Origin: Leptodontidium sp. MPI-SDFR-AT-0119
Lineage: Eukaryota > Ascomycota > Leotiomycetes > Helotiales > Leptodontidiaceae
Assembly (NCBI GenBank): GCA_020726505.1
Contig: JAHLEZ010000005.1
Span: forward strand, 1,736,001-1,800,000
Length of the DNA stretch: 64,000 nucleotides
Direction of reading: 5' to 3'
The number at the start of each line of letters is the position of its first letter. Position 1 is the first letter of the stretch. Made by a program: the position numbers and the translations under genes. Shown in pieces: positions 21,129 to 25,493 of the stretch. A model generated the notes under the pieces. The model did not search any database. It was not told where the DNA came from and saw only the letters and a program-made list of their open reading frames with translations.

Positions 21129-21263
21129 GGGCGAATGGTTTAGTGGTATAATACTTCTTTAGCATAGAAGTGGTCCAGGGTTCGAGTAAGTTGTTCTGAT
21201 ACTCATCCCACCTGCTTCAAATCTTCAAGTTCTGACTTTCAAAAAAAGTTCCCTGTTCGTCCA
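21129..21263 (+). tRNA. tRNA-Ala(AGC) split by a 63-nt intron-like insertion in the T-loop
   Basis: The 5' part (21129-21185) gives acceptor strand GGGCGAA, a D-arm with A-box TGGTTTAGTGG, anticodon stem CTTCT/AGAAG around loop TTAGCAT (anticodon AGC, Ala), and the T-stem 5' strand CAGGG with TTCGA. The 3' part (21249-21263) gives TT, the T-stem partner CCCTG, the acceptor partner TTCGTCC and discriminator A. Joined, the T-stem pairs 5/5, the anticodon stem 5/5 and the acceptor 7/7 (one G-U). A normal seven-base T-loop TTCGATT is restored. Only the D-stem is weak. The insertion interrupts the B-box promoter after GGTTCGA. This perfect pairing across the gap argues against a simple truncated pseudogene. 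Whether the RNA is made and spliced is unknown. Confidence 0.85.
21186..21248 (+). other. Spliceosomal-type intron candidate inside the tRNA gene
   Basis: The 63-nt insertion begins GTAAGT, has the fungal branch-site sequence CTGAC (21232-21236), and ends AAAAAAAG. Its branch adenosine lies 13 nt before the 3' end. Length and signals match the protein-gene introns of this window. It sits between tRNA positions 58 and 59, not at 37/38 where nuclear tRNA introns lie. It has no run of four or more T, so RNA polymerase III would not stop inside it. Confidence 0.75.
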
Positions 21264-21282: not shown

Positions 21283-21287
21283 TTTTT
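21283..21287 (+). terminator. RNA polymerase III terminator (T5)
   Basis: Five T residues begin 20 nt after the tRNA discriminator base; it is the first T run of this length downstream of the gene. Confidence 0.6.
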
Positions 21288-21797: not shown

Positions 21798-24700
21798 ATG
21801 GATAGATCAGCCGACGTACGCCGGGACGGAGTGATCCCTCCAGCCGGTTTGACAGTCCTGTTCGATCCCCACAAGCCGTCTCTTGAGTGAGTTTCTGTCA
21901 GTTCTATGGCCAACATATATTCCGCTGACCGAAAAGCATCATATTCATTCATGGTTTCACCGGTCATCCTGAAAGGACATGGACTCACAAGAGAGGAGAT
22001 ATGAGGCACCGAATCGAAGGCAATAACAATGACGAATTAGTCGAACCTCCTGCTAAGTTCGAAGATTCAATCTGTTCTCGAGGCCACATCACGGAGGCAA
22101 CTCCAATACTGCTGTCTATTGGCCGCAAGATCTGATTCCAGTAACCGTCCCGTACGCGCGGGTCTTGACATATGGTTACGACACACATTTGAGATACTAT
22201 TTTGGGCCTCCGGTGAGCAGAAATACCGTTTACGATATTGCGTGGGATTTTCTGGTTGCTCTAGAGGCTCAACGTCGGGTAGAGCCTTCAAGGCCGGTAT
22301 TATTCGTCGCACATAGCCTGGGAGGAATCATTGTTAAGGAAATGCTACGACGATCGAGTGGCTGCCACATAGGCCAAACTCATCTCCGCAGCGTTTTTGA
22401 CTCCACGATCGGAATCATTTTTTTTGGCACCCCGCATGGCGGCGCTGATCCCCGTGGCTTTCTTCAACACATTGCAGAGGCGGTTATCAAAGCTGCCGGG
22501 GTTCGCGTCAACGGACAGATCGTTAACACGCTCTTGCCATCGGCAGAACGCTTAAGGGAACTGAGGGATGAGTTTAGTCCGATGGCTCACCAACAGGATT
22601 GGATGATACATTCGTTCCAGGAGGAGCTAGGCGTTATGGGTCTCAATGGCCACAAAGTACGTTTTCTCCTGTATACTTCTTCTACTGCTCATAAGATGTT
22701 CTATAGGTTGTCGAGGATACATCATCTTATCTAAACTTTCCGTCTATCGAGACTACCGAGCACATTGGACAGAATCACATGGACATGTGTCGCTTCACGG
22801 GGCTTGATGACGTCGAATACAAGAAGGTCGCCGCCGTACTCCATAGAATGACGGGGGCGGTCTCTAGGCAGTCGAGAAGGGGAGACGTTCCCCCTCTCAA
22901 CAATGAGCAGAGACAGACGCTGGTGGACTCAATGAGATTCGACCAAATAGACGCTCGCCAGATGACTATCAAAAAAGCACACGCCAAGACATGCGAATGG
23001 CTTCTGGACAAGTCCGAATATCTCGCCTGGCTTGATGCCGCTAAGCTACACGAACACCACGGCTTTTTGTGGATCAAAGGGAAGCCCGGAACTGGAAAGT
23101 CAACTATGATGAAGTTCGCTCTTAGTAATTCCCGGAAGATCATGAAGGACAGAATCATTATCTCGTTTTTCTTTAATGCACGAGGAACGGACCTAGAAAA
23201 GTCTACAATTGGGATGTATCGATCGCTATTAGTGCAACTCCTTGAACGACTGCCAGAGCTCCAATGTGTTTTTGAATCTCTCGGATTTGCGACTTGGAAT
23301 AGTATTAGTCATCCCCAATGGAGCATCGAATTACTAAAAGATCTCTTCGGGCAAGCTATACAATTACTGGGACAGTTCTCCGTATTATATTTCATTGACG
23401 CCTTGGATGAGTGCGACGAACGTCAGATTCGAGACATGGTGACGTTTTTCGAACATCTGGGGGAACTCACCGTCTCGGCCGCAATTCGATTTCAAGTCTG
23501 CTTTTCAAGCAGGCACTACCCACATATCACAATCAAGCAAGGACTCAGTCTGGTTCTAGAAGGACAAGAGGGACACATTCAGGACATTGCTAGCTATATC
23601 GACAGCAACTTGAAAATCGGGCATAGCAAGCTCGCTGAGCAGATTAGAGCTGAACTTCAAGAGAAAGCAACGGGGGTGTTTATGTGGGTTGTCCTCGTAG
23701 TGGAAATATTGAACAAGGAGCACGATGGTGGCCGCATACACGCCCTTCGGCAAAGACTTCGAGATATCCCTGGCGATCTCCACAAGCTCTTCCGCGATAT
23801 TCTGACACGAGACTACTACAACAAAGACGAACTACTGCTATGTATTCAATGGCTGCTTTTCGCAAGGCACCCGTTAAAGCCGGAGGAATTGTACTTTGCT
23901 ATTTTGTCCGGTATTAAACCTCAGGACCAGTCAAGATGGGATTCCGATGAAATTACGACAGATGTTATTAAGAGATTTATTCTAAGTTCTTCGAAAGGGC
24001 TCGCCGAAATCACGAAGTCAAAGACTCCAATTGTTCAATTCATTCATGAGTCCGTAAGGGATTTTCTTCTTAAAGGAAACGGGCTAAGAGCTGTTTGGTC
24101 TGATCTCGGGGATAACTTCCAAGGACAAAGCCACGAGCGACTAAAGCAATGCTGTCTCAACTACATGAACATCGACATCGCTACCCACCTGAACATCGGA
24201 ACTCCACTTCCGAAAGCATCATCGCCAGAAGCCGCAGCCCTCCGGCAGTCGGCAGCTGAAGCGTTTCCATTCCTACAATACGCTGTACAGAAAGTTTTGC
24301 ACCACGCCGACATGGCAGGAAGGGGCTGTGTTAACCAGAAGGATTTTGTTCAGAGCTTTCAACTGGCCAAATGGATCAATCTGGATAATCTCTTCGAAAG
24401 ACATGAAATACGCCGACACACTCCGAACGCAAGTCTTTTATATATATTGGCGGAGGGAAACATGCCAAATCTCATAAGAGTTTACTCATCTAACCTACCT
24501 TGCTTCGAAATAGAACATGAGCGTTATGGGCCGCCATTTTTTGCGGCACTGGCTACCGGGAGCGATGAGGCTGTCCGGGCATTTTTAGAAATCCAAGCGG
24601 AAGTCCAGCCCCCGACGTCTCCGCTTCATGACTTGTGCAAACAGTACTGCCAGGATAGAAACAAATGGGCCAATTTTGGGCGCAACTTCTCTTTCTCACA

Positions 24701-25493
24701 ACAAAGGGTTGTTCTTTCTTATGTTGCGGAGTATGGCAATGAGATACTACTTACTTTTATGCTTGAGTTAAGACAACATATGCCGGATAGCAAGGATAAA
24801 TACGGTCGGACGCCACTGTCGTATGCTGCTATGCACGGGCACGTGGCCGTGGTCAAGCTACTACTCGAGACTAGTAAGGTCGAGGCCGATTCGAAGGATT
24901 ATAGCGATCGGACGCCGCTGTCGTATGCTGCTATGAACGGGCACGAGGCCGTAGTCAAGTTGCTGCTCGAGATTGGTAAGGTCGAGGCCGATTCGAAGGA
25001 TAAATGTGGTCAAACGCCGCTATCGTGGGCTGCTGAGAACGGACACGAGGCCGTGGTCAAGCTACTGCTTGAGATTAGCCAGGTCGATGTTAATTCTAAG
25101 GATAAAGGTGGTCGGACGCCACTGTCGTATGCTGCTATGCACGGGCACGAGGCCGTGGTTAAGCTGCTGCTCGAGATTGGTAAGGCCGAGGCCGATTCGA
25201 AGGGTTATGACGATTGGACGCCGCTATTGTGGGCTGCTTCGAACGGGCACGAGGCCGTGGTTAAGCTGCTGCTTAAGACTGGTAAGGTGGAGGCTGATTC
25301 GAAGGATCATAAGGATCGGACGCCGCTTTTCTGGGCTGCTGGGAACGGACACGAGGCCGTGGTCAAGCTACTGCTTGAGATTAGCCAGGTCGATGTTAAT
25401 TCTAAGGATAAAGGTGGTCGGACGCCGCTATTATGGGCTGCTGAGAAGGGGCGCGAAGCCGTGGTTAAGCTGCTACACAAACATATTGACTGA
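21798..25493 (+). CDS. Fungal NLR: alpha/beta hydrolase - NACHT - ankyrin repeats, with a frameshift
   Basis: STAND-type receptor of the kind linked to fungal non-self recognition. Exon 1 is 21798-21886 and intron 1 is 21887-21936. The next coding block is 21937-22656, intron 2 is 22657-22706, and the last exon is 22707-25493. The first domain is a SesB/DUF676-like hydrolase with FIHGFTGHPERTWT and the nucleophile elbow AHSLGG. The NACHT domain follows, with Walker A GKPGTGKST and Walker B YFIDALDECDE. Seven 34-residue ankyrin repeats end the protein. Near 22060 the frame changes between EPPAKF and RRFNLFSR. One missing base there explains it, and no GT-AG intron fits. As sequenced, the protein would stop at 22135, or translation would have to start at 22165, after the HGFTGHP block. 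So this is either a recent pseudogene or a sequence error; the NACHT and ankyrin parts are fully open. Confidence 0.85.
24781..25490 (+). repeat. Seven 102-bp ankyrin-coding repeats
   Basis: Units of 102 bp (34 residues) follow the pattern DRTPLxxAAxNGHEAVVKLLLE. Copies are highly similar at the DNA level. The block 25037-25120 is identical over 84 nt to 25343-25426, exactly 306 bp (three units) away. This shows unit shuffling or gene conversion. Confidence 0.93.

Follow-up and report, generated by a model that had tools for sequence, protein, structure and literature searches.

The 64,000-nt stretch analysed here (the window) corresponds to positions 1736001-1800000 of contig C45 of the Leptodontidium sp. 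MPI-SDFR-AT-0119 assembly; the assembly searched comprised 77 Mb in 69 contigs (designated by C-numbers). A chitin synthase encoded in the window shared 97% identity (coverage 74%) with one of Leptodontidium sp. 2 PMI_412, and a GMC oxidoreductase matched a protein of Leptodontidium sp. MPI-SDFR-AT-0119 at 100%; the species is placed in the Leptodontidiaceae (Leotiomycetes, Helotiales). The window contains a tRNA-Ala(AGC) gene on the forward strand (21129-21263), interrupted after the fifth base of the T-loop by a 63-nt GT-AG insertion. Exon 1 (21129-21185; 57 nt, tRNA positions 1-58) included the 5′ strand of the acceptor, the D-arm, the anticodon arm, with the anticodon AGC at 21161-21163 (ARAGORN, joined sequence), the variable loop, the 5′ strand of the T-stem and the T-loop bases TTCGA. 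Exon 2 (21249-21263) supplied the T-loop bases TT and the 3′ strands of T-stem and acceptor (14 nt), with A73 at 21263. The insertion, between tRNA positions 58 and 59 (21186-21248), started with GTAAGT (21186-21191) and ended with AG (21247-21248), as the sequence-only reading had described; the branch-site-like CTGAC that it had placed 13 nt before the end was also present (21232-21236), starting at -17 and leaving 12 nt to the 3′ end. A Rfam match to MIR854 over the insertion was dismissed as chance (8.9 bits vs. a cut-off of 50).

Box A (TGGTTTAGTGG, 21136-21146) agreed with the consensus TRGYNNARNGG at 11 of 11 positions, and box B (GGTTCGAGTAA, 21179-21189) with the consensus GGTTCRANNCC at 9 of 11; the latter spanned the 5′ splice site, its core lying within exon 1 and its final bases inside the insertion. 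A run of five Ts resembling an RNA polymerase III (Pol III) terminator was located 20 nt beyond exon 2 (21283-21287).

The two tRNA halves had been claimed to pair across the 63 nt, and this was verified: 7 of 7 acceptor pairs, with a single G-U at 3:70, the alanine identity pair, and 5 of 5 T-stem pairs. The uncut gene was not recognised as a tRNA by ARAGORN or, at the gathering score, by Rfam, whose tRNA model reached 19.4 bits (cut-off 29) at 21129-21188, nearly all exon 1. Once the 63 nt were removed, ARAGORN called a tRNA-Ala(AGC) with a cloverleaf containing G3:U70.

tRNA-Ala(AGC) genes of the genome

Four tRNA-Ala(AGC) genes were found (contigs C45, C1, C6 and C23) and all four carried a GT-AG insertion in the T-arm, three at 58/59 and one, that of C23, at 53/54. 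Chance is therefore a poor account of the insertion in the window. The C1 copy (C1:1832255-1832326, found by DNA search) had a 52-nt insertion (GTAAGT...CTAAC...ATAG) at the identical 58/59 site, mostly different in sequence from that of the window copy; the anticodon stems of the two genes also differed, by a compensatory change. An ordinary anticodon-loop intron was additionally present in the genes on C6 and C23.

The search for intact copies that the sequence-only reading had proposed gave no uninterrupted tRNA-Ala(AGC) with three genome-wide patterns. A T-loop plus 5′ splice site pattern (GGTTCRAGTANGT) matched 15 places, all of which were read: three were the C45, C1 and C6 genes and the other 12 were judged by eye not to be tRNA. 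A D-arm pattern with up to two mismatches matched 22 places (control 19), and the 18 that were read included the C45, C1, C6 and C23 genes and a truncated 5′ part; among the unread places, C11:639465 and C33:28216 were Rfam tRNA hits without mismatch to a Gly-type D-arm, and C1:5929427 and C8:1654367 were weak matches. The first of the three patterns for uninterrupted copies, TTAGCAT-N5-TGGTC-N3-GGTTCGA, is blind to copies bearing an anticodon intron and matched 12 places with up to three mismatches: C45 and C1 with none, and ten further places with three each, judged from the matched letters alone. GGTTCRANNCCN6GTCC matched two places, a tRNA-Ala(CGC) gene and a locus (L102) not read by ARAGORN. 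GGTTCRANNCCN7TCCA matched seven, namely tRNA-Ala(TGC), tRNA-Ala(CGC), four places that proved on reading not to be tRNA, and one in a locus (L115) where no tRNA was found. Since this inventory rests on patterns, a divergent intact tRNA-Ala(AGC) whose T-arm or acceptor end departs from the usual form could escape it.

The truncated 5′ part (L003; C1:4073174-4073209, reverse strand) was identical to the window copy over 36 nt; it stopped after position 37, and no 3′ half was seen in the following 1.5 kb. An exact tRNA-Ala 5′ pattern had no match in bacterial, archaeal and viral contig collections. GCT and GCC were frequent codons in five ORFs of the window.

Other interrupted tRNA genes

In total, eight GT-AG insertions were found in seven tRNA genes, at sites 6/7, 9/10, 12/13, 21/22, 53/54 and 58/59; five of the seven genes additionally had an anticodon-loop intron. 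Besides tRNA-Ala(AGC), the interrupted genes were a tRNA-Ala(CGC) on C9 (insertions at 9/10 and 21/22 plus an anticodon-loop intron, G3:U70 kept), a tRNA-His(GTG) on C3 (L027, insertion at 12/13) and a tRNA-Glu(TTC) on C10 (L127, insertion at 6/7, acceptor 7/7 Watson-Crick once it was removed).

The T-arm pattern GGTTCGANTCC, free of splice signals, matched 151 places (control 139), and 98 of the 100 places listed were examined. Among 174 loci examined, 37 sites combined a paired T-stem with a fully paired upstream acceptor partner; ARAGORN read 35 of these, and the two that it missed were the interrupted tRNA-His(GTG) and tRNA-Glu(TTC). No tRNA was reported by ARAGORN in the uncut interrupted copies tested, and none of the seven genes was among the 46 places of a genome-wide Rfam tRNA search (63 of 2,877 candidates scored). 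After joining, the five tRNA-Ala and the tRNA-Glu were read with the expected anticodon; the joined tRNA-His, a sequence short by one anticodon-loop base, folded without an isotype call.

A second tRNA-His gene on C14 (L148), read by ARAGORN as tRNA-His(gtg), did not have the 12/13 insertion. Body and 3′ flank of the two tRNA-His genes were 94% identical over 128 alignment columns and the 13 nt at exon 1 were exact, so that L148 is an empty-site paralogue of L027 and fixes the junction within one base.

Three other patterns were used for further insertion sites: GGTTCRAGTGNGT (12 places, five read, none a tRNA), TAGNGGTWGTANGT (17 places, one being tRNA-Ala(CGC) and the other 16 read with no tRNA seen) and CTAACN{3,18}AGTTCGANTCC (four places, one being the C23 gene and the other three read with no tRNA). 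One of the last three was an intron-like stretch in an apparent coding sequence. More interrupted tRNAs may be present in this genome: four T-arm-like stretches with partial tRNA features, unread by ARAGORN (L128, L130, L140 and L167), could be of this kind.

Splice signals of the insertions

All eight insertions began with GTRNGY, ended with AG and contained CTRAY at -14 to -17, and their lengths were between 51 and 63 nt. Among 399,515 segments of matched lengths drawn at random from the window, only 5 met all three signals, a somewhat flattering figure because the insertion edges were set with GT-AG in mind (for most of them the tRNA structure would allow a shift of about one base, and for tRNA-Glu of more). 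Five of the eight insertions (C23, both in tRNA-Ala(CGC), tRNA-His and tRNA-Glu) were found by patterns without a splice signal; for the window copy, C1 (found by homology) and C6 (found by the 5′ splice-site pattern), a start with GT was already fixed.

The insertion in the window had been likened to the introns of protein genes nearby. Four tblastn gaps in the window served as a yardstick, a small sample, and three of these fitted in size and signals, giving introns of 50-55 nt with CTGAY: one in a GMC gene (55 nt, GTATGT...CTGAC...TTTAG), fixed by the species' own protein, and two in an adaptin gene (53 and 50 nt), located close to the gaps by their match to an intron pattern. The remaining gap, in a chitin synthase gene, did not match the intron pattern. 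No introner-type repeats were seen among the eight introns, the longest stretch common to any of them being 14 nt; the first 14 nt of the window intron also occurred in the C1 copy, and the rest of it had no genome match in a search that skipped very common words. TTTT was present in none of the eight introns, and its avoidance was dropped as a Pol III sign since the result was not significant (0.116).

The fission-yeast U6 gene, cited in the sequence-only reading as a precedent for spliceosomal introns in a Pol III gene, had a counterpart in this genome. A search that scored 47 of 4,623 candidates gave two U6-like loci. One (L104; C13:138532-138689, forward strand) was a U6 snRNA gene interrupted by two GT-AG introns, arranged as ACATTTGGT, an intron GTATGT...CAG, CAATTTGAAACGATACAGAGAAGATTAGCATGGC, an intron GTAAGT...CTAAC...CAG, and CCCTGCACTAAGGATGACA; the introns were placed by comparison with the U6 sequence. 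One of the two fell in the conserved catalytic region. U6 is a Pol III gene, so tRNAs are not the only Pol III RNAs of this fungus whose genes have GT-AG introns. The second U6-like locus (L103; C13:117239-117337) was intronless and had an unusual 5′ part.

Covariation of the joined tRNAs

The five joined tRNA-Ala, four of them tRNA-Ala(AGC), were aligned over 20 pairs (100 pair cells). All 100 cells were standard pairs and 11 of the 20 pairs were changed on both sides between copies; such changes occurred in all four stems and included three acceptor and two T-stem pairs. None of 500 shuffles was as good on four of five measures, and four of 500 were on the fifth (pair types). Related sequences may inflate this test; when the partners were slid, a control that preserves relatedness, the paired cells fell to 41-56%. 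With the alignment restricted to the four tRNA-Ala(AGC) rows, both-sided changes remained at three pairs of the acceptor and one of the T-stem. Since each of these pairs has one partner in either exon, it is the joined molecule on which selection has acted.

Processing of the interrupted tRNAs

Nuclear tRNA introns are classically removed by the tRNA endonuclease, and spliceosomal introns belong to Pol II transcripts. The features that can be read directly in this genome (the insertion, its signals, the restored cloverleaf, the paralogues, the covariation and the empty site) indicate that the spliceosome very probably removes the GT-AG insertions from functional tRNA precursors, whichever polymerase transcribes them. 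Such removal is suggested by the complete signals of all eight insertions vs. the absence of GTRNGY from the six anticodon-loop introns, by the covariation across the insertion, by the empty-site tRNA-His paralogue, by the failure of the patterns used to find an uninterrupted tRNA-Ala(AGC) in spite of the frequent GCT and GCC codons, by the U6 introns, by the similar protein-gene introns of the window and by the upstream AATAA described below. The spliceosomal-type intron first proposed for the window gene thus appears well supported by signals, paralogues and covariation. The precursors would be nuclear tRNA transcripts, probably made by Pol III, whose T-arm, D-arm or acceptor stem is interrupted by short introns of the U2 spliceosomal type. 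The spliceosome would remove these GT-AG introns, the tRNA endonuclease and a ligase would remove the anticodon-loop introns, and the product of both removals would be a normal cloverleaf, presumably functional. The GT-AG introns may have originated by reverse splicing.

The usual substrates of spliceosomes are Pol II transcripts, and within this reading the precursors could instead be Pol II or longer messenger-like transcripts, a variant that is unlikely. In its favour, box A lies a long way downstream of exon 1 in tRNA-Glu and tRNA-Ala(CGC) and is split in tRNA-His. Against it, box A was in register in six of the seven interrupted genes (11/11 in the four tRNA-Ala(AGC) and tRNA-Glu, 10/11 in tRNA-Ala(CGC)); a scripted 10/11 match in tRNA-His was out of register. 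Box B was complete (11/11) in tRNA-Ala(CGC), tRNA-His and tRNA-Glu, 10/11 in C23 and 9/11 in C45, C1 and C6, the C1 letters being those of C45 (the site reported by the script for C1 was an equal-scoring one elsewhere). The insertion interrupted box B in the C45, C1 and C6 copies which, with the split box A of tRNA-His, counts against the main proposal. Runs of at least four Ts were located within 62 nt downstream of all seven genes. Of 46 normal tRNA genes, 16 had AATAA at -46 to -27 (background 1.4%), as did five of the six interrupted genes tested (C23 was left out), with the distance taken from exon 1; the exception was the window copy, which had none in this interval and counts against the proposal. 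The intron of tRNA-Glu and tRNA-Ala(CGC) pushes box A 55 nt downstream but AATAA stays at -36 from exon 1, a conserved distance that suggests initiation ahead of exon 1. This element, which the interrupted genes share with normal tRNA genes, and the GT-AG introns of U6 likewise argue against the Pol II variant. Many tRNA genes (L012, L015, L036, L043, L051, L062 and others) had an CAAATAAG-like element, perhaps a Pol III upstream element, located 27-46 nt ahead of them.

The chief rival to removal by the spliceosome is that the endonuclease cuts both types of intron, the insertions being atypical tRNA introns as in Cyanidioschyzon merolae, and it is improbable. Eukaryotic D-arm and T-arm introns at 12/13 and 53/54 are indeed known (PMC9602550), and many ectopic introns of the Guillardia nucleomorph have no defined bulge-helix-bulge (PMC3978253). 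The anticodon-loop introns provided an internal control against this alternative: among six of them (five in the interrupted genes and one in the tRNA-His paralogue) none started with GTRNGY, none had CTRAY at -10 to -25 and one ended with AG, so the full signals set the eight insertions apart from the anticodon-loop introns beside them. Both tRNA-His anticodon-loop introns contained CTGAC, at -6. The size of the insertions and the position of their branch sites resembled the protein-gene introns of the window, and none of the eight used 37/38, the canonical eukaryotic endonuclease site. A strict bulge-helix-bulge with a 4-bp central helix was found in none of the eight insertions (0-3 of 4 pairs), a test which does not discriminate because the anticodon-loop introns failed equally (0 of 6).

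That dead tRNA copies were hit by unrelated insertions, considered in the sequence-only reading as a random recent event in the window copy, is highly improbable: a truncated tRNA-Ala(AGC) does exist, but four interrupted copies without an intact one among the patterns used, both-sided pair changes in every stem, different insertion sequences at the same site with uniform splice signals, and insertions in tRNA-Ala(CGC), tRNA-His(GTG) and tRNA-Glu(TTC) at four other sites all oppose it.

Relation to known introns and significance

Canonical eukaryotic tRNA introns are located at 37/38 and are removed by the Sen endonuclease. Introns of this type coexist with the GT-AG insertions in five of the seven genes, and the insertions differ from them in position, length and signals.

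Among the closest published cases, the U6 snRNA gene of Schizosaccharomyces pombe has an mRNA-type intron (PMC10484740) and resembles the tRNAs described here as a Pol III small RNA with such an intron; its host is a part of the spliceosome, and the explanation invoked there is reverse splicing close to the catalytic core, whereas the hosts here are tRNAs. In C. merolae, tRNA genes contain introns in the D-arm, anticodon and T-arm, including 12/13 and 53/54 (PMC9602550), so that ectopic introns of nuclear tRNA genes and these two sites are common to both organisms. Their processing is little known (PMC9602550) and they have been described as bulge-helix-bulge-mediated (PMC3978253), unlike the GT-AG ends, branch site and mRNA-intron length seen here. 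Lichen fungi have spliceosomal introns in nuclear rDNA, one of which was spliced from yeast rDNA (PMC8527467); these are also spliceosomal introns of a fungal non-coding, non-Pol II RNA, but the host is a Pol I rRNA instead of a tRNA. Spliceosomal introns in tRNA genes were not reported in any of the titles and abstract openings listed from open-licence PMC papers, an absence that is not proof.

The making of the interrupted tRNAs thus probably depends on the spliceosome, and one essential alanine tRNA species would need it. With somewhat less confidence, it is probable that the decoding of alanine GCU and GCC became wholly spliceosome-dependent after repeated intron gains in Pol III tRNA genes and U6 of this fungus, perhaps also of related Helotiales. 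Some tRNAs would need two splicing machines per molecule. A tRNA that requires the spliceosome bears on the need of splicing for the Pol II tail and the cap. The tRNA-His genes, as intron-plus and intron-minus paralogues, bear on intron gain, and sites in a folded RNA without reading frame would record spliceosomal intron invasion, for example by reverse splicing. For tRNA annotation, interruptions of this kind may conceal tRNAs that fungal genomes seem to lack.

Close to the tRNA-Ala(AGC) gene, the window contained, judging by sequence features, a putative NACHT-ankyrin-type ORF (22165-25493, forward strand), with a putative lipase-like ORF just upstream. AT-rich similar sequences formed two groups (L181, L187 and L191; L183, L193 and L194), which are probably dispersed repeats.
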